A stretch of DNA of 20,273 bases from a virus, in IMG/VR virus record IMGVR_UViG_3300019360_000113, positions 1-20,273 of that record, one strand, 5' to 3'. Below, piece by piece: positions 3,311 to 19,388 of this stretch. The notes below the pieces were generated by a model. The model saw only the letters and a program-made list of their open reading frames with translations, searched no databases and was not told the origin of the DNA. The position numbers and the translations under genes are program-made. Each line of letters opens with the position of its first letter. Position 1 is the stretch's first letter.

Positions 3311-5424
3311 CTCCGGCTGGTTTCACGCCACACGTTTCCGTCGCGGCGGTAGCGGAGCATGGCGCCGTTGGGCGGCGTCGCGTCGACAAAGCCTTTCGAG
3401 ATGATGGTGGCGTTGTGCTTGATCGTGGTGTTGGCATCGTTCACCAGCAGCTCGAACACCTGCCCATTGAAGCCGCCCAGGAAGTCCGTGATTATTGTCG
3501 CGATCGAATTGTTCGTCCTGAACATGCTGGCGTAGGTTGGCGCCAGCGACGGGGTGGCCGCATTGGCGGCCAACTGGACGACGATATCGGACGTAAGGCT
3601 GTAATTGTTCCGCACCGTCGCTGCCGCCGGCACGTTCTGCGCGAAGGCGCCGACGCTTGAGTAGCGGTTCTCCTCGACCACCATGTTTGAATTGGTAGCG
3701 AGGTTCACGCCGACGTCGAAATCCGTGAAGCGGTTATCTTTAATGGCACCATGACTGCTGACGGCGTCCACAAAAACGTCGTCCGTACGATCTGTCGGAT
3801 CGATGACGTAAGCAAAGTTATGCGCGATATCGACGTCACCGCAGCTTTGAAGTTGGAAGACCTTGTACTGCGCTGCCGCGGGTTCGCCTGGCGCGCTGTC
3901 GCGTTTGTAAAACGTGTTGCCGCGCGCAAAGAACTGCGCGATGCCCTGCGCCCACACACCTCCGATGAAGCATTGCGCGTGATTGTTGATGATCTTGAAG
4001 TCCGGGCCGTTCGCGACATTGAGGCTAGCCAGTAGGTTCGTCGCGACCACGTCGCAATCATCGATCAAGAGGCCCTCGATCACGGAAACGCCGATGTCGG
4101 TGAACACCAGGGCGTTGCCGCAGACCTGCCGGCAACGCCGGACAGTCACTTCTTTCGATCCAGAGCCGGCGAGGTAGATCAGGATCGCGTTGGTCGTGAG
4201 TTTCTTGCCATTGATCTTGCAGTTGTCGACGAGGGCGCGGAAAGCGTTGGTCAACTGCATGCCGAACGAGAACTGATCGTTGTTCTGATTGGCGCCATAG
4301 ACCGAGACGTTCTTAATCTTCGCTCCGACAGAATGCTCCTCGGCACCAGGCACCCAAGTCGGATATGTGATCCGGATAGCGCTATTGGGATTGTTAACGC
4401 CCTGCGCGATGATTGTGAGGTCGTTCACCTCAGTCGCCCAGGCTGAAGCCGCGTGATTGAAGGTGAACGGCTCCTGCACGGCATGCGTGAACAGGATCTT
4501 GGACACTTCGTCGCCGAAGCCATCGATGCGCACGTTCTTGTTGGAGATCGCAGCCAGGCCAGTCGCCATCGGAACATTGCCGACCGGCCATTTTACGCAC
4601 CCACCACCGGAGGGCAGTCGCGCGACCGCCGCGTCCATATACGCGGTCCAGTTACTCGACACAGGGTCCAGCACGTCATCGTAGGCATTGACCCACGTCT
4701 CGCGGACTTTGATCCATCCGGCCGGGACGGCCTTCTGCGTGCTGTCGGTCTTCGCCGGCGTCGGCACCGTTGGGTTCAGGTTGAACGCATGCTGCCCGGT
4801 CCATGTCGGCGCAATGGCTTGCGACAGCGCCGGCGCCGCGTCGGAGCGCAGGGCGGTCGGGGCGACGCCGTTGACGGGGGCAAGTCCGATCGTGCCGGTT
4901 GGGTCGGCAAACGGCAGCACGCCGCCGACCGTACCATAGGCGACGGCCTCGGGATCGCCGGTGGTGCCATTGAAGCCCAGCAGGGCGCCCGAGCGGGTCG
5001 CCTTGCGCGGCAGTTCGGCCACCGACGGCTCGCGCGTGGGCACGCGCAGCGCGCGCCCGAGCCGGGTGTTGACTTCCTGCAGCGAGGCAATCCCGCGATC
5101 CCAATCCGCCATCTCCGCCGTGGCCGGACGGGAGACAAAGTCGGACAGGTTCGACTGCTGCAGGCGCGTCGTATCGCGGAACGCCTTGACCAGCGCCAGG
5201 GTGATCGGCGGCGGCGTGGTCCAGGTGATGAGGCCGCCGGCGGGATTGGCAATGCCGGTGATGCTGGAAATCGACGGCAACAGATCGTTGCGCTCCACGC
5301 CGGCGGTGTCCCAGCCTTTGATCACGATATCGTTGGCCGACAACACCAGGTTGTCGAAGTTCAGCGTGTTGGTCACGCCGTTGGGCACCATGGTCCATTC
5401 GGTCGTCTGGACATTGACCGTCAT
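3304..5424 (-). CDS. Tailspike: T7 gp17-type N-terminus plus beta-helix
   Basis: A 706-aa receptor-binding protein. Residues about 1-125 (TEWTMVPNGVTNTLNFDNLVLSA..., LVKAFRDTT..., then a helical WDRGIASLQEVNTRLGRAL) fit the T7 tail-fibre N-terminal adaptor that docks to the tubular tail proteins. A Gly/Ala/Pro-rich linker follows. From about residue 240 (WVNAYDD..., LPSGGGCVKWP) a pectate-lyase-like right-handed beta-helix with repeated N-N and IxxN turns runs to about 630. The C-terminal 70 residues form a probable trimerisation domain ending RRDGNVWRETSRSY. The protein likely binds and perhaps cleaves surface polysaccharide. Its ATG overlaps the upstream stop (ATGA, 5421-5424). GC drops in the beta-helix part (31 of 60 at 4201-4260). 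Confidence 0.85.
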   Translation of the reverse strand: MTVNVQTTEWTMVPNGVTNTLNFDNLVLSANDIVIKGWDTAGVERNDLLPSISSITGIANPAGGLITWTTPPPITLALVKAFRDTTRLQQSNLSDFVSRPATAEMADWDRGIASLQEVNTRLGRALRVPTREPSVAELPRKATRSGALLGFNGTTGDPEAVAYGTVGGVLPFADPTGTIGLAPVNGVAPTALRSDAAPALSQAIAPTWTGQHAFNLNPTVPTPAKTDSTQKAVPAGWIKVRETWVNAYDDVLDPVSSNWTAYMDAAVARLPSGGGCVKWPVGNVPMATGLAAISNKNVRIDGFGDEVSKILFTHAVQEPFTFNHAASAWATEVNDLTIIAQGVNNPNSAIRITYPTWVPGAEEHSVGAKIKNVSVYGANQNNDQFSFGMQLTNAFRALVDNCKINGKKLTTNAILIYLAGSGSKEVTVRRCRQVCGNALVFTDIGVSVIEGLLIDDCDVVATNLLASLNVANGPDFKIINNHAQCFIGGVWAQGIAQFFARGNTFYKRDSAPGEPAAAQYKVFQLQSCGDVDIAHNFAYVIDPTDRTDDVFVDAVSSHGAIKDNRFTDFDVGVNLATNSNMVVEENRYSSVGAFAQNVPAAATVRNNYSLTSDIVVQLAANAATPSLAPTYASMFRTNNSIATIITDFLGGFNGQVFELLVNDANTTIKHNATIISKGFVDATPPNGAMLRYRRDGNVWRETSRSY

Positions 5425-8399
5425 CGCACTGCCTCCCTCGGATCGCGGAAGTAGCCGCGGCCTTCATCGCGCTGCGTGCGCGCGACCATGCGGCGTGTGA
5501 AGCCCGGCGACAGGTGCTCGTACCAGGGGTAGAGCACCAGCTGGTCGAGGCCGGGACGGATGAGGAAATGGCTGGCGAACGGCGTGTTGCTGACCAGCAG
5601 CCGCGAGGCGGCCATGGCCTTGCCGTCGCCCTGCTTCCAGCCGTGGAAGACTTCCATGATGTCGTCGAGCTGGCCGAACGTGGGACCGGCCAGCGAGGAG
5701 AGCGCGCTGCGGCCGAAGCGGCTGTACTCGCCCCAGATGAAATCGCCGTACAGCCCCATGCCGCCGCCCTGGGCGATCGCGGCCATGGCCGTCTTGGGGT
5801 CGACCGGATCGCGCGGCTCCTTGCCCTTGATCAGGTCCTTGGCCAGCATCGACAGGTAGCCCATGGCCGACAGCTCGGCCATCAGGGCGCCCATGCGCAC
5901 CACGGCCGACGCGGTGATCGGGCCGCCGTTGATCTCGCGCCCCAGCACGCGCGTCATCATGGCGATGGGGAAGCCCTTGAACTGCATCACGAAGCGCAGC
6001 GCCTCGCCGGTGACGGTGCCGCGCTCGGTGCCGTAGTTCATGCGCGCCCGCTCGCGCGCGCCGGGCGTCGGCACCGCGAAGTCGGTGCGATCGACGATCA
6101 GCGCCTGGAACGCCGTGGCAAGGCGGTCGCGCGCGTCGAGCAGCCAGCGCTCGGCCGGCACGACGGCGGCATTGCGGTCGGTCGCCAGCGCATAGAACTC
6201 GCCCAGCGGGATCTGGTGCACCTGGTCGGGCGTCATGAACGTGGTGCCGTCCTCGGCCCGGCGCACGGCGTGCGCGCGCAGCAGCTCCCAGCGCTCGGTG
6301 TCGATGCCGTATTGCGCCAGCACCTTGCGCGGCGCGTCCGGCAGCGCATCGAACGCGCGATCGGCGAGGCTGGCGTAGTGGCGCGCAAGCATCAGGCCGA
6401 CCGTGGTCTTGTGCGTATCGGTCCACCAGTTCAGCCCGTTGTAGCGGAAGAAGAGTTGCAGGGTCTTGGCGATCCTGCCGGGCGCGCCGTCCGTGCTGTG
6501 ATAGCGGCTCTGGATGAGGCCGGTCAGCGCCTCGAAGCCGACGCCGACCAGGTCGGCGAATTCACGCCGCTCGCCGCGACGCACGCCCTTGAGCACCCCG
6601 CTCCAGGCTTCGCGGTAGCTGTCGAAAACACCGACGCCCTGGTAGCGGAGTTCCGACGCCAACGTGGCAACGTCGCCGAAGCTGGAAATCGTCGCCATGC
6701 CCAGCTTGGCCATCGACTGCACGGCGCGGATGGCGCCGGCCCAATGGGCGAGCGTCGGATTGCTCGCCTGCCGCGTGGTGCCGTCCAGCTCGGCGAATTC
6801 CCAGCCGTGATAGCCCTTCTGCAGTTCCCGCGCCGTCCTGGTGTCGCCGGTGTCCTGCGCCTGGCGCAGCGCCTCGACGATGAAGCGGTCATGATTGGCC
6901 TTGGCGTTGGGGCCGAACGCCTCCATCAGCGCCGTGGCGCGGGCGCTGTGCTCGAATTCGCCTGATATATTCTCGGCCAGGCCGCCCTGGCCGAACTTGC
7001 GGGCGTAGGCCAGCTCCGACGCGGCGTCACGGAAATGCAGCTCGCGGTGCCCGCTGCGCTTCTTGCCGATCGACGCCTGGCCGATCAGCGTGGCGACGCC
7101 GTCGAATTGCGGGCCGTCGCCCTTCATCCACACGTTGGTGATGATCTTGTTGTAGACGCTGCGCAGATAGCGTTCGCGGTCGGTCACCGGCTCGCGTAGG
7201 CGGGTTTCGTACTCGCCGATCCGGTCATGCAGCTCGGTGAGCAAGTCCAGGCCGCGCTCGATGCGGTCATGGGCCGCGATCGCGTCGTCCAGCAGGGCGG
7301 CCGCTGCGTCGGCCGCGTCGCGCTTGGCCATGGCGCCTGACGTGTTGCGCGCGTGCTGGCCCTGCAGCTCCTCCAGGCGCCGCCGCTCACGCGACAACGC
7401 CACGCGGGCCTCGGCCTTGCGCCGGCCGGTCTCGACGCCCTCGCCGGCGTCGGCGCGCGCGGCCAGCTCCATGTAGCGGGCCAGCGCCTCGCGCATCGAT
7501 CGCGTGGCCTCGGCCACCCGGCCCTCAAGCCCGGACTGGCGCGCCTCGGCCCGGCCGGCCTTGGCCTCTTCCTTGGCGGCGCGCGAGGTGAGCGCGTCCA
7601 GGTGGTCGCCCAGCGCCTGCATGTCGGCGCGCGTGGCATTGGCCTGCTGTCCTACGGCGTCACGATCGGCGCGCAGCGCCATCAGCCGGTCGCGGTCTCG
7701 CGCGAACGTGCGCGCCTCGTCCAGCAAAGGCAGGATGGTGTCGCGCCAGGCTTCGTAGCCCGCCTTCATCACGGCGATGGTGTTGTGGCTCTGCCGGCTG
7801 ACATAGCCCTCGATCGCACCGCGCCAGGACCCGGCGCGGTTCTCGCGCAGGCGCCGCTGCTCGCGGAACAGGTTGATGGCCTCGGCGATGCGCTGCGCTT
7901 CCGCCGGCGCTGCCTCGCCACGCAACGCCTTGGCGATCTCGATTTCATAATCGCGATCGAGGAACAGCTTGAGGTGGTCCAGGCCGTGCTCGGCCGTCAG
8001 GCGGCGCAGCGAGGCGAGCAGGCCGCCAAGGCTTTCGGCGAACATCGCCTTGGCGGTGGCATCGACCGACACCCGGCCGCCCGGCACGGGGTCGTTGACG
8101 CCGACGCGCATCGCCTGCAGGGCGTGCGCCGGATCGCCGACCGCTTCGGCAAAGCGGTTCATCGCCTGCCAGGCGGTGCGGTTCAGCAGCACGTTGCGCT
8201 GGGCCAGCGCCTTCTCGGCGCGGATCTCGTCGGCGACGGCGCGCGCGGCGGCCAGCGGATCGTCGGCATAGCCATCGGCGCGCCGGCGCATGCGTTCGTT
8301 CTCCAGCCGCTCGGCGAAAGCCTCGGCCTCGTCCATCGACAGGCGCCGGCCCAGCGCCTCGCCCATGGCCCGCATGCAGTTCTCGAAGCTGCCGGCCAT
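5421..8399 (-). CDS. Giant internal virion protein (gp16-like, second)
   Basis: A 992-aa protein with a helical N-terminus (MAGSFENCMRAMGEALGRRL, FAERLENERM), a long coiled-coil region at about 235-400, the conserved-looking block RYLRSVYNKIITNVWMKGD (about 420-440), and a C-terminal third with hydrophobic segments (GALMAELSAMGYLSMLAKDL) ending YPWYEHLSPGFTRRM. Proteins of this type are the large core or ejection proteins of T7-like phages and prophages, thought to enter the cell envelope during DNA injection. I see no lytic transglycosylase motif such as that at the T7 gp16 N-terminus. Its start overlaps the upstream stop by one base (TGATG at 8397-8401). The function is inferred from size, order and composition. 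Confidence 0.72.
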   Translation of the reverse strand: MAGSFENCMRAMGEALGRRLSMDEAEAFAERLENERMRRRADGYADDPLAAARAVADEIRAEKALAQRNVLLNRTAWQAMNRFAEAVGDPAHALQAMRVGVNDPVPGGRVSVDATAKAMFAESLGGLLASLRRLTAEHGLDHLKLFLDRDYEIEIAKALRGEAAPAEAQRIAEAINLFREQRRLRENRAGSWRGAIEGYVSRQSHNTIAVMKAGYEAWRDTILPLLDEARTFARDRDRLMALRADRDAVGQQANATRADMQALGDHLDALTSRAAKEEAKAGRAEARQSGLEGRVAEATRSMREALARYMELAARADAGEGVETGRRKAEARVALSRERRRLEELQGQHARNTSGAMAKRDAADAAAALLDDAIAAHDRIERGLDLLTELHDRIGEYETRLREPVTDRERYLRSVYNKIITNVWMKGDGPQFDGVATLIGQASIGKKRSGHRELHFRDAASELAYARKFGQGGLAENISGEFEHSARATALMEAFGPNAKANHDRFIVEALRQAQDTGDTRTARELQKGYHGWEFAELDGTTRQASNPTLAHWAGAIRAVQSMAKLGMATISSFGDVATLASELRYQGVGVFDSYREAWSGVLKGVRRGERREFADLVGVGFEALTGLIQSRYHSTDGAPGRIAKTLQLFFRYNGLNWWTDTHKTTVGLMLARHYASLADRAFDALPDAPRKVLAQYGIDTERWELLRAHAVRRAEDGTTFMTPDQVHQIPLGEFYALATDRNAAVVPAERWLLDARDRLATAFQALIVDRTDFAVPTPGARERARMNYGTERGTVTGEALRFVMQFKGFPIAMMTRVLGREINGGPITASAVVRMGALMAELSAMGYLSMLAKDLIKGKEPRDPVDPKTAMAAIAQGGGMGLYGDFIWGEYSRFGRSALSSLAGPTFGQLDDIMEVFHGWKQGDGKAMAASRLLVSNTPFASHFLIRPGLDQLVLYPWYEHLSPGFTRRMVARTQRDEGRGYFRDPREAVR

Positions 8400-10912
8400 C
8401 AGGCGCCTCCCACCTGGCAGGCGGCCAGCGCCTCGATGGCGGCGGCCTGGTCGTCGAAGGTCTTCGCGACGGCGTCGAGTTCATCGCGCTCCTGGTCGCT
8501 GAGCTGATCGCCGTAGCGCGCCATGAACGCCTGCAAGTCGTCCTCAGGCGTCGCCGCCTTTGTCGCCGCGTCGGCCTCGGCCGCGCGCACTGCCTCGAAA
8601 TCGGCATGCAGGTCGCTTTCCGGCGACGACTGGCGCACGACGTGCGTGTCGATGTCATCCGTGGTCAGCGGCGGGGACGCATCGAAGAGATCGGACTGCG
8701 CGCGGGCATCGGCATCGAACAGGCCGCCCGCCGGCGGTGCCTCGCTGCCGCCGCGCAACGGCTGCTGCAGGCGCCGCTCGGCAAGCTCGCGGTCCGTGAT
8801 GCGCTCGGCGCCAGGGACGACGGCCTGAGCGCCGTCCGCCGGCGGCCGGTCTAGGCCGGCTTGTACTGGTCCGGGCTCGCCTTCGGCTCGGACGGTCCGC
8901 CCGGCTCCCGCGCTGCCATCTTCTGGTCGAAGTCCGGCCGGCGCTGCCGCAGCTGCTTGCGCAGGTTGGCCATCGCCAGCGCGTTGGCCAGGCTCATCCG
9001 CGCCGCGGCCGGCATCGACCGTGTCGCCAGCAGGTCCTCCAGCTGGCTCGCGTGGGCTTGCAAGTCTTTCAGCGTCGGCATGCAACCGCTCCAGATCATC
9101 GAGCGTCAGCGGCTGTTGGGTCCGCTCACGGTGCGCCAGGTCGGCGTCTTGTTCAATGGGGCCGCGTTCGGCGAGGGCGGCGCGCGCGGCATCCTCTTCG
9201 GCCAGCATCGCGTCGGCGATCTCGCGATCGAGCATGTCAAGCGCCTCGACCGTCTCGGCCTCGCTGAGGTTGTCGACGCGTCGCGCCAGGGCCTCGCGGC
9301 GCTGGCGCCCCTCGTCCAACGACAAGAGCCAGGCGAGTGTGCGCGGCTCCAGGCGACGAACATCGAGGCCAAGCTCCGAGAGAAGCTGCTGCACACCCTC
9401 GTTATAGGCCCGTGTCTCGGCGGCGCGGATCGCATCGACGTCGTCCTCACGGTACAGCCGGCGGGCGCCTTGCGCGTCGGCGATCAGGTCGGTGATGAAG
9501 GTGTTGAGTTCGACGCTCTCGCCGCTCGCCCGCTCGCGCGGATAGAAGCCCTCCTCCGTGGCGCGGCGCGCCAGGTCGTCGGCGCTGTGACCGGCGACGC
9601 GGTCGGTCGAGACACCGGCATAGCGTTTGCGCTGGGTCAGGAACGAGCGCGGTCCCAGATCCTGCGCGCGCAGCTCGCCCGCTTCCGGGCTCTCGCTGTC
9701 GAGCCCGCCGACCTTGCGCACCCATGCCGCCAGCGATTGGCCCTGGCGCGTCTCGGGCAGCGGCGCCAGCCCACGCTGGATGCGGCGTGCCTCGGCCAGC
9801 TGGTCGACGGTCGGCCGGAAGCCATCGGGCACCGGCGCCGGCGTGAACGCACCGCGCAGCGTCTCGGCGGCGGCGGTCGCGATGTCGCGCGAGGCCGCCT
9901 CCAAGGTCGGCCGGTCGACGCGATCGGCCAGGCGCTGCGGGCTTTCCAGCCGGCCGCGCTGCTCGGCCGTGATGCGCGGCGGGCGCCAGTCCGGATCGGT
10001 GCGCAGGATCGCCTCGACGTCGACGCGCCGATCGGCCCCGAGCTGGCCGATGGCGGCGCGCAGCACCGCCTCGCGCGTCTCGGGCCGCACGCGCTCCAGT
10101 GCCTCGGCCATGGCCTGGCGCGTGCGCGGCTCATCGCCCGAGCCGATGGTCTGCAGCGCCGCCACGACCCGTTGCGTGGCGCGCGCCTCGGTGCGGCGCT
10201 CGAACGCATCGCCGATGCGGCCGCCCAGCCAGTGCAGGCCGCCACCGATCGCACCGCCGAAAGCGATGTTGATCAGGCTGTCGGCGAGGCCGTAGTCCGG
10301 ATCGCTCTCCCGCTTGGCCGACGCATAAATCGGCTCGACCGCGAGCGCGCCGAAGGCACCTTCCAGGGTGCCGGCGATCAGCCGGGCACGGCCGGTGCCG
10401 ACACGGGCGGCGAGCTGGGCGAAGCGCGCCGGACCCATCGCCGGGATGAAGGCGCTGGCGATGTTGGTCGGGTCGGTCGCCGTCAACAGCAGTTCCAGGC
10501 CGCCGGCGGCCAACCACTTCGCCGTGCCGTAGTCGCCGCCCTCGCGCGCGCGCCGGTAGATGAAATCGGCCTCGAGCTGGCGTTCGCGCTCGCCGATGAT
10601 CGACTGCAGGCTGAACGCCGTCATCGGCCGGTCGAAGGACAAACCCAGCCGCTTCACCCGGTCGTTGACTTCGCTTTGCGGCACCAGCGGCGGTGCCACG
10701 TTGTCGGCGCCGAAGAGTTCCGTCAGTTCGGGACCACCAAAGGCCCGCGCCTCGATTTCGGCCTGGTTGCGCGCGGTCTGGCTGGCGATGGTGCGCGTGG
10801 TCTCGGCCGCCATCTCGTCGATGACGGTGCCGAGATATTCGCCCCAGCCGGCCGGTTGGCGATCGAGCGCGATCGGCCGCGTCTCGCGCAGGGGATCGAG
10901 CCACACGCTCAT
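8399..10912 (-). CDS. Giant internal virion protein (gp16-like, first)
   Basis: An 837-aa protein. It starts MSVWLDPLRETRPIAL, with Gly/Ala-rich, moderately hydrophobic segments around residues 120-230 (WLAAGGLELLLTATDPTNIASAFIPAMGP..., LINIAFGGAIGGGLHWLGG) that could insert in a membrane, and a helical remainder. The ATG at 10910-10912 overlaps the gp15-like stop as ATGA, so the longer reading from 11332 is rejected. It is the probable ejection or core protein between gp15-like and the 992-aa protein. Odd point: residues about 611-687 (9081-8851) read as a low-complexity Gly/Ala/Pro/Arg stretch with only about 50% GC at third positions, while another frame there has the coding signature (see nested ORF). 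Confidence 0.7.
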   Translation of the reverse strand: MSVWLDPLRETRPIALDRQPAGWGEYLGTVIDEMAAETTRTIASQTARNQAEIEARAFGGPELTELFGADNVAPPLVPQSEVNDRVKRLGLSFDRPMTAFSLQSIIGERERQLEADFIYRRAREGGDYGTAKWLAAGGLELLLTATDPTNIASAFIPAMGPARFAQLAARVGTGRARLIAGTLEGAFGALAVEPIYASAKRESDPDYGLADSLINIAFGGAIGGGLHWLGGRIGDAFERRTEARATQRVVAALQTIGSGDEPRTRQAMAEALERVRPETREAVLRAAIGQLGADRRVDVEAILRTDPDWRPPRITAEQRGRLESPQRLADRVDRPTLEAASRDIATAAAETLRGAFTPAPVPDGFRPTVDQLAEARRIQRGLAPLPETRQGQSLAAWVRKVGGLDSESPEAGELRAQDLGPRSFLTQRKRYAGVSTDRVAGHSADDLARRATEEGFYPRERASGESVELNTFITDLIADAQGARRLYREDDVDAIRAAETRAYNEGVQQLLSELGLDVRRLEPRTLAWLLSLDEGRQRREALARRVDNLSEAETVEALDMLDREIADAMLAEEDAARAALAERGPIEQDADLAHRERTQQPLTLDDLERLHADAERLASPREPAGGPAGDTVDAGRGADEPGQRAGDGQPAQAAAAAPAGLRPEDGSAGAGRTVRAEGEPGPVQAGLDRPPADGAQAVVPGAERITDRELAERRLQQPLRGGSEAPPAGGLFDADARAQSDLFDASPPLTTDDIDTHVVRQSSPESDLHADFEAVRAAEADAATKAATPEDDLQAFMARYGDQLSDQERDELDAVAKTFDDQAAAIEALAACQVGGA
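8851..9081 (-). CDS. Nested 76-aa ORF inside the gp16-like gene
   Basis: An ORF in a different frame on the same strand: starts MPTLKDLQAHASQLEDLLATR, continues helical and Arg/Gln-rich, then KASPDQYKPA and TAG. GGAG lies 7 bases before the ATG. Counting codons, 71 of 76 third positions are G or C, against 38 of 76 in the long frame across the same bases, so codon bias favours this frame. It could be a real overlapping gene translated by internal initiation. Alternatively, two compensating frameshifts could have moved a piece of the larger protein out of frame. No family is recognised. Confidence 0.5.
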   Translation of the reverse strand: MPTLKDLQAHASQLEDLLATRSMPAAARMSLANALAMANLRKQLRQRRPDFDQKMAAREPGGPSEPKASPDQYKPA

Positions 10913-17999: not shown

Positions 18000-18941
18000 T
18001 CAGCTCTCGGTGACTTCGATGGTCACGACCATGTATTCGTGGTTGCGCCGGGCACCCACGCTGATGTCGGTCGAGACGCGATAGCGGCGGTAGGATTGCT
18101 CCCACGTCACCACGCCGTTGGCGCTATAGGGCGTCCAGCGCTTGAAGCTCTTGTTCTTGATGAACATGATGAGCTTGCGCACGTTGGGCGAACCGGCCGT
18201 GTAGGGCAGGTAGCGTTCCAGGATGGAACCGTCCTGCTTGTTCGGATCGTACAGATCCTCGACGCGGATGAAGTCGACCAGGCCCATCGACACGATACGG
18301 CCCTTCTCGCGCACCATCATCGAGCTATAGTCGCGCGAGGCGAACTCGACCGCCGTCATCAGGCTCTTTTCCGCCTTGGCGTTCCACAGGCAGATGATGC
18401 GGTCGCCCTCCTGCTCGTCGAACATGCCCTTGGTCTTGAGCATTTCGACGCCGCTGTCGAACTTTGTCGTCGAGAAGCCGGCGCCGCCATGCACGATGTT
18501 CTGGCCGGCCGGGAACGCGATCGGTGTCGTACCGGTCTTGCCCTGGTACATGGTTGCGGTCGACGCGTTGATGACCGTGGCCACCTTCTGGCGGTTGGCC
18601 GCCGCGACCTGTTGGCGCGCGAACGTGCTGCGCGCGTCCGTCATCGTCTTCAGCCGGATCTCGTCGTGCTTCGCGACCGTGGTGTCGTGGTAGTAGTCGT
18701 CGAAATACATCCAGCGCCGCCAGGCATCGATCGGCGTCGTCTGCAGTTCGGTGTCGCGGGTGTTGAGCGGACGCATGATCGCGGTGCCGACGAAATCGTC
18801 GGACATCGCATCGGCGCCCTGGTCGGTGACGTCTTCGACGAGACCCGACAGCAGGTCCCTGTTTTGCTGGCTCAGCACCTGAAGCGTGTCGGCGTAGCGC
18901 GACGACATCAGGGTGGCCATGTTCTCCGATTGAGTTGCCAT
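18000..18941 (-). CDS. Major capsid protein candidate
   Basis: A 313-aa soluble protein, starting MATQSENMATLMSSRYADTLQVLSQQ. It contains TPIDAWRRWMYFDDYYHDTTVAKHDEIRL, ARQQVAAANRQKVATVINAST, and a C-terminal part with MVREKGRIVSMGLVDFIRVEDL and YRRYRVSTDISVGARRNHEYMVVTIEV, which fits an HK97-fold coat protein of the type found in integrated phages. T7 gp10A is 345 aa. It lies after the scaffold and before the tail-tube genes, as expected for the coat protein. GGAG is 9 bases upstream of the ATG. The family is assigned from context more than motif. Confidence 0.75.
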   Translation of the reverse strand: MATQSENMATLMSSRYADTLQVLSQQNRDLLSGLVEDVTDQGADAMSDDFVGTAIMRPLNTRDTELQTTPIDAWRRWMYFDDYYHDTTVAKHDEIRLKTMTDARSTFARQQVAAANRQKVATVINASTATMYQGKTGTTPIAFPAGQNIVHGGAGFSTTKFDSGVEMLKTKGMFDEQEGDRIICLWNAKAEKSLMTAVEFASRDYSSMMVREKGRIVSMGLVDFIRVEDLYDPNKQDGSILERYLPYTAGSPNVRKLIMFIKNKSFKRWTPYSANGVVTWEQSYRRYRVSTDISVGARRNHEYMVVTIEVTES

Positions 18942-19169
18942 TTCGGGTCACTCCGTCGAGGGGGTGGAGCGAACCGGGTTCCTCTTGGTTGACTGCTTTC
19001 CGCCCCGTCCGCCTGCCGGAGTTGCAAGCCGGATTGCCAGTCTGCAGGCGCCGTCGCGGCCCCTGTTCTCGGCGGAAATCGGCCGCCGTGGTCCGCCCCG
19101 GTTCATCGGCACCGGGGAAGCCGATCGCGATGCTCAGGCGCGCGCTTGCCGATCGGCCGCGCGCTTCCT
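18942..19169. other. 228-base gap upstream of the capsid gene; two stem-loops
   Basis: I see no gene. There is a 7-bp hairpin CCCCGGT/ACCGGGG (19096-19117) and a longer-range 8-bp stem GCCGATCG/CGATCGGC (19120-19127 with 19150-19157). This is the largest gap in the late operon and the likely place for a separate capsid promoter or a processing site. No sigma70-type promoter on the minus strand is convincing; a phage RNA polymerase promoter could not be recognised without its consensus. Confidence 0.4.
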
Positions 19170-19388
19170 TCACACCGGCGGTTTCGGGGGCGTGGGCGTG
19201 CCCAGCACCCAGTTGACGTAGCGCTCGGCTTCGGGCTCCAGCGCGTCGAGCTGCTTGTAGCGGGCGGTATCGCGCGCGATCTTCAAGCACTCCATGCGCA
19301 GCGCCATCATCCATGGCATCGGCTCGATGGCGGGCCTGTTGGCCGGCGCGTCGGTGGTCGGGTCGGACTGCGTGTCGCTACGCGCCAT
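19170..19388 (-). CDS. Small hypothetical head-region protein
   Basis: A 72-aa protein: a polar N-terminus (MARSDTQSDPTTDAPANRP), a central helix with PMPWMMALRMECLKIARDTARYKQLDALEPEAERYVNWVL and a Pro-rich end (GTPTPPKPPV). It starts directly after the scaffold-like stop (TAG at 19389-19391) with GGGAG 8 bases upstream. No family is recognised. The position between scaffold and capsid genes suggests an assembly factor; the helix pattern is compatible with protein-protein contact. Confidence 0.6.
   Translation of the reverse strand: MARSDTQSDPTTDAPANRPAIEPMPWMMALRMECLKIARDTARYKQLDALEPEAERYVNWVLGTPTPPKPPV

Follow-up and report, generated by a model that had tools for sequence, protein, structure and literature searches.

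The window, which is the whole stretch of DNA analyzed here, spans a complete virus record (20,273 bases). The virion genes, those of a T7-like podophage, lie on its minus strand and include the major head protein, tail proteins, a gp14-like protein and a protein in the gp15-like position. The features that matter for this report are the following:

18003-18941, minus strand: major head protein
8399..10912, minus strand: long gene of 837 aa, a gp16-like / large-polyvalent-type internal virion protein with phrog_3003 at its N-terminus
9134..9790, minus strand: "GGI" domain in the long protein, with the pattern SLxxFLxxxGGIxDxxGEL...LDxAxxAAxEAGYF, immediately preceding the nested gene
9089..9092, minus strand: Shine–Dalgarno (SD) sequence GGAG, 7 bases before the nested ATG; its GGAGCGG context also occurs in the relatives L031 and L032
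8851..9081, minus strand: very probable nested overlapping gene (76 codons) in the +1 frame of the long gene, starting with ATG and ending with TAG
8855..9082, minus strand: main-frame reading of the overlap, a little-constrained Gly/Ala/Pro/Arg-rich linker of the long protein
8402..8850, minus strand: C-terminal part of the long protein in the main frame, with the tail FDxxAxAxxALAxC conserved in relatives
5421..8399, minus strand: virion structural protein phrog_684, the next gene downstream, used to fetch relatives

The reading frame of the long gene is open across the nested gene. The length of 837 aa, taken from an earlier note made from the sequence alone, includes the M at 10912, where the alignment of the relatives begins (a small correction). 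Two other ORFs on the minus strand may be mentioned. A 329-aa ORF at 18325-19314 overlaps the major head protein, but its codon-position GC (0.86/0.59/0.52) is unlike that of coding genes and it is probably spurious; a 323-aa ORF at 1167-2138 has a profile match to phage endolysin / tail-injection transglycosylase (phrog_873, E 9e-24).

Coding signal of the nested frame

The nested ORF encodes a protein that begins with MPTLKDLQ and ends with QYKPA. Lying in a different frame and having a start and a stop of its own, the ORF fulfils the first criterion for an overlapping gene. The earlier note had claimed that this ORF carries the coding signal where the long frame loses it, and that it is preceded by a GGAG SD sequence; both claims held. 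The GC content by codon position is 0.71/0.50/0.93 in the nested frame, with G/C at 71 of 76 third positions, compared with 0.93/0.71/0.50 and 38 of 76 in the long frame over the same bases. On either side of the overlap, the GC3 of the long frame is ~0.87. Furthermore, in a codon-usage model trained on the other genes of the window, the switch into the nested frame gained 32 nats, and the best switch points lay at 9066-9084 on the way in (ATG at 9081) and at 8853-8862 on the way out (stop at 8851-8853). A few doubtful ORFs had entered the training set behind this gain; a second training set gave a nested-minus-main codon score of 21.7 nats.

Could the signal be mere compositional mimicry, in which a linker rich in Gly, Ala, Pro and Arg yields by itself a high-GC third position in another frame? 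In favor of this explanation, positions 1 and 2 of the main frame are 93% and 71% GC, and when the long frame was recoded synonymously at random, the +1 frame remained open 88% of the time; therefore, openness alone means little in this GC-rich genome. On the other hand, the main-frame GC3 drops to 0.50, 5,000 such recodings all fell short of the observed codon score (z = 6.6; range over the recoding tests, 6.6–7.3), and distant relatives conserve the amino acids of the nested frame. We consider mimicry to be virtually ruled out.

Conservation in the closest relatives

The closest findable relatives, L031 and L032, were found by scanning with aligned sequences of the downstream protein, in which they are 46% identical; in the long protein they are 38% identical to the window. 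With only three known members, the window's own set is small. Homologues of the nested protein are present in both relatives at the matching place (E 7e-10 and 6e-9, with 42% and 37% identity over the alignment, for L031 and L032, respectively), and both begin with MPTMKELQ. Their nested ORF is again +1 to the long frame, with an ATG start in the context CTGGAGCGGTACT-ATG; the context in the window is CTGGAGCGGTTGC-ATG. In the three-member alignment, MPT[ML]K[ED]LQ is followed by a middle helix and then by LRQR[VR]PDFD. The long frame is also continuous in all three, each of which ends in the homologous C-terminal tail.

The substitutions in the overlap track the nested frame. In the L031/L032 pair, through which the suppression of synonymous change was measured for the window's own set, the most variable position in the overlap is the third position of the nested frame, whereas in the flanks it is the third position of the main frame. 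Of the changed main-frame codons, only 4/41 were synonymous in the overlap versus 65/160 in the flanks (p = 1.6e-4). Two further criteria for an overlapping gene are fulfilled: diverged relatives conserve the ORF, and synonymous change in the host frame is suppressed where the two frames overlap. For the nested frame, the sequences show a start, an SD site and a stop, as well as conservation and purifying selection; the long frame is relaxed in the overlap.

The earlier note had left two alternatives, to be decided by aligning homologues: a true overlapping gene, or a part of the long protein whose frame was shifted by one indel and restored by a second, compensating one. A recent double shift would also give normal codon usage in the nested frame and abnormal usage in the main frame. 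However, in the homologues both frames are open, with the nested frame, its ATG and the GGAG conserved, and L031 and L032 keep the +1 arrangement with ATG, SD and stop even at 38% main-protein identity. MPTLKDLQ-like residues, which the indel explanation would place in the main frame of homologues, were absent from that frame in every locus fetched, and, within the overlap, the main frame shows suppressed synonymous change. The homologues thus refute the indel branch, which is as good as excluded, and support the overlapping-gene branch. Separately, the loss of a stop codon between once separate genes was dropped as an explanation, the C-terminal tail being in the same frame in the relatives.

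We conclude that the segment 8851-9081 is, very likely, a genuine overlapping gene; its translation is inferred, as there are no expression data.

Nested frames and the GGI domain

A scan with the GGI domain gave 24 loci, the 12 closest of which (L118-L129, alignment A6) form a larger set of phage loci. All 12 have a +1-frame ORF just after the GGI-type domain, and the set includes genes of about 1,800-3,000 aa with differing downstream sequence. An aligned ATG is present 56-65 codons ahead of the stop in every member, although the start positions appear variable when the codon score is maximised, and the SD-like sites range from -4 to -10 kcal/mol. In the main frame of the L118/L119 pair, 1 synonymous and 12 nonsynonymous changed codons were found in the overlap, compared with 113 and 47 in the flanks; in the nested frame, the counts were 10 and 4. 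Pooling of four close pairs gave 12 synonymous and 80 nonsynonymous changed codons for the main frame in the overlap, whereas its flanks had 367 and 283 (p = 6e-16); for the nested frame, the totals were 41 and 54. These results show that, in close pairs of the larger set, the nested frame is under selection like a normal gene and that synonymous change of the long frame collapses in the overlap.

Could ribosomes instead enter the nested frame by programmed +1 frameshifting, so that the long protein would be cut short and would end in an alternative C-terminus? In the larger set, the best codon signal begins close to a conserved stretch that codes for IPFF, and the start codons lying furthest downstream differ between loci, as such a mechanism might produce. 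However, every member of the window's set and each of the 12 loci in the larger one has an aligned nested-frame ATG with an SD-like site. Moreover, Pro is encoded by different codons (CCC, CCT, CCA, CCG) where slippage might occur, and no IPFF-type motif is present in the window's set. Frameshifting is therefore highly improbable, and separate initiation within an overlapping gene remains the preferred reading.

Going beyond the earlier note, we found that nested ORFs of this kind go with a single domain across several different polyvalent-type genes. The downstream neighbor was used to retrieve 26 distinct genes; a nested +1 ORF with a positive codon score occurred in 5/5 of those with the GGI domain versus 1/21 of those without it (Fisher 9e-5); the threshold was set after seeing the data. 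For L032, the best-scoring entry in this count is an overlap with the neighboring gene, and its true nested ORF was identified separately. More candidates lie in bacterial genomes (L151, L153, L154 and L164, with L165 and L167 weaker). The domain also occurs without a nested ORF, in 9/12 domain loci from one bacterial order and in the more distant GGI versions L130-L141, L116, L117 and L098. It was not found in a survey of 369 genomes of one class, which was run without a positive control.

The nested proteins of the two sets showed no homology by hhalign (probability 0.2%), and the sets have in common only the frame, the place and the helical character. It is possible that they arose independently; homology has not been shown. 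Two other +1-frame ORFs, both TAG-terminated, lie inside gp16-like genes in which no GGI domain is detectable (L042:4038-4193 and L052:5466-5645), and these may conceivably represent further nested families.

Predicted product, possible role and known systems

The model of the nested protein has predicted helices at residues 4-18, 25-47 and 51-57 (mean pLDDT 78). The product is thus likely, on this prediction, to be a soluble helical protein with its own start, three helices and a disordered tail. Foldseek gave a best E-value of only 1.4 for it, no significant family was found in Pfam, PHROGs, NCBIfam or PADLOC, and tblastn against phages and plasmids gave no match; one nested protein of the larger set has a weak match to phrog_1545 (E 0.013). 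Pattern scans of viral contigs with the nested or long protein alone, which required exact 8-residue matches, returned nothing. The GGI domain likewise has no significant Pfam match, and its model (pLDDT 84) had no PDB match by Foldseek and no Z >= 5 in VIA-align 2, where mostly residues 95-185 were tested. It does match predicted viral proteins (BFVD), of which two of the best five are named large polyvalent protein associated domain.

How might the two frames be used? We propose that one frame would be translated into the long internal virion protein, and that a second initiation at GGAG-N7-ATG on the shared mRNA, which is inferred, would yield a separate 76-aa protein in the +1 frame. Over the overlap, the nested frame would be the constrained one, and the long frame would read through as a tolerant low-complexity linker. 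That the long protein is injected is inferred from its gp16-like position, as is any activity in the new host. The small protein would work with the GGI domain; it may be a dedicated chaperone, an inhibitor or an antidote for a protein destined for packaging and injection. Whether it does partner the adjoining domain could go either way; the partnership is inferred from linkage alone, because such ORFs directly follow this domain type in different polyvalent-protein architectures, and nothing measured connects the two in function. A toxin–antitoxin or effector–immunity pairing is likewise an inference resting on association only. A bolder reading, toward which we are slightly skeptical, is that certain domains of injected proteins travel with a +1-frame partner on the same stretch of DNA; if so, recombination could not separate the domain from its antidote or chaperone.

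Nested phage genes are already known, for example lambda Rz1 within Rz and B, E and K of phiX174. Like these, the present one lies wholly within another gene, occupies a different frame and has a ribosome binding site of its own. Unlike them, it lies in a large internal virion / polyvalent-type gene, its own frame rather than that of the host gene is the more strongly constrained, similar ORFs go with one domain across architectures, and the product looks soluble and helical. Unusually, the constraint falls on the inner gene, and the outer protein merely tolerates the sequence. A conserved, domain-linked nested gene inside internal virion/polyvalent-type genes was not found in the libraries or literature searched, although most subscription journals were outside the coverage. 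In the paper on large polyvalent proteins (Iyer et al. 2017, PMC5512222), "overlapping" is absent from the text and "nested" is used only for a hairpin structure. Gene callers usually discard nested ORFs; therefore, small phage proteins of this class may have escaped annotation. The link to one domain of injected polyvalent-type proteins also gives a concrete hypothesis on the means by which phages hold such domains in a harmless or folded state before they are delivered.

The host gene resembles the large polyvalent proteins in being modular with a variable middle, and the GGI-domain matches in BFVD include proteins so named; the criterion for that class, a multi-domain phage protein of variable content, is met by the common C-terminal tail and variable middle. 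It is also like the T7-like gp16 / phrog_342, phrog_3003 internal virion proteins in its N-terminal profile match and in its position between the gp15-like gene and phrog_684, but unlike them in its C-terminal half. The Pelagibacter-type relatives (424 aa) lack both the GGI domain and the nested gene. Elsewhere, the variable middle of the gp16-like protein holds other insertions, which by eye resemble an RNase-type domain (L004:3057-4913) and an ADP-ribosyltransferase-type domain (L005:2541-4913), both ahead of the common conserved C-terminal tail. Finally, the gene in the same position at L042:1982-5704 has a ddrB-like ParB domain (PF18763, E 3e-32), which links a virion gene at the gp16-like position to known polyvalent-protein domains.
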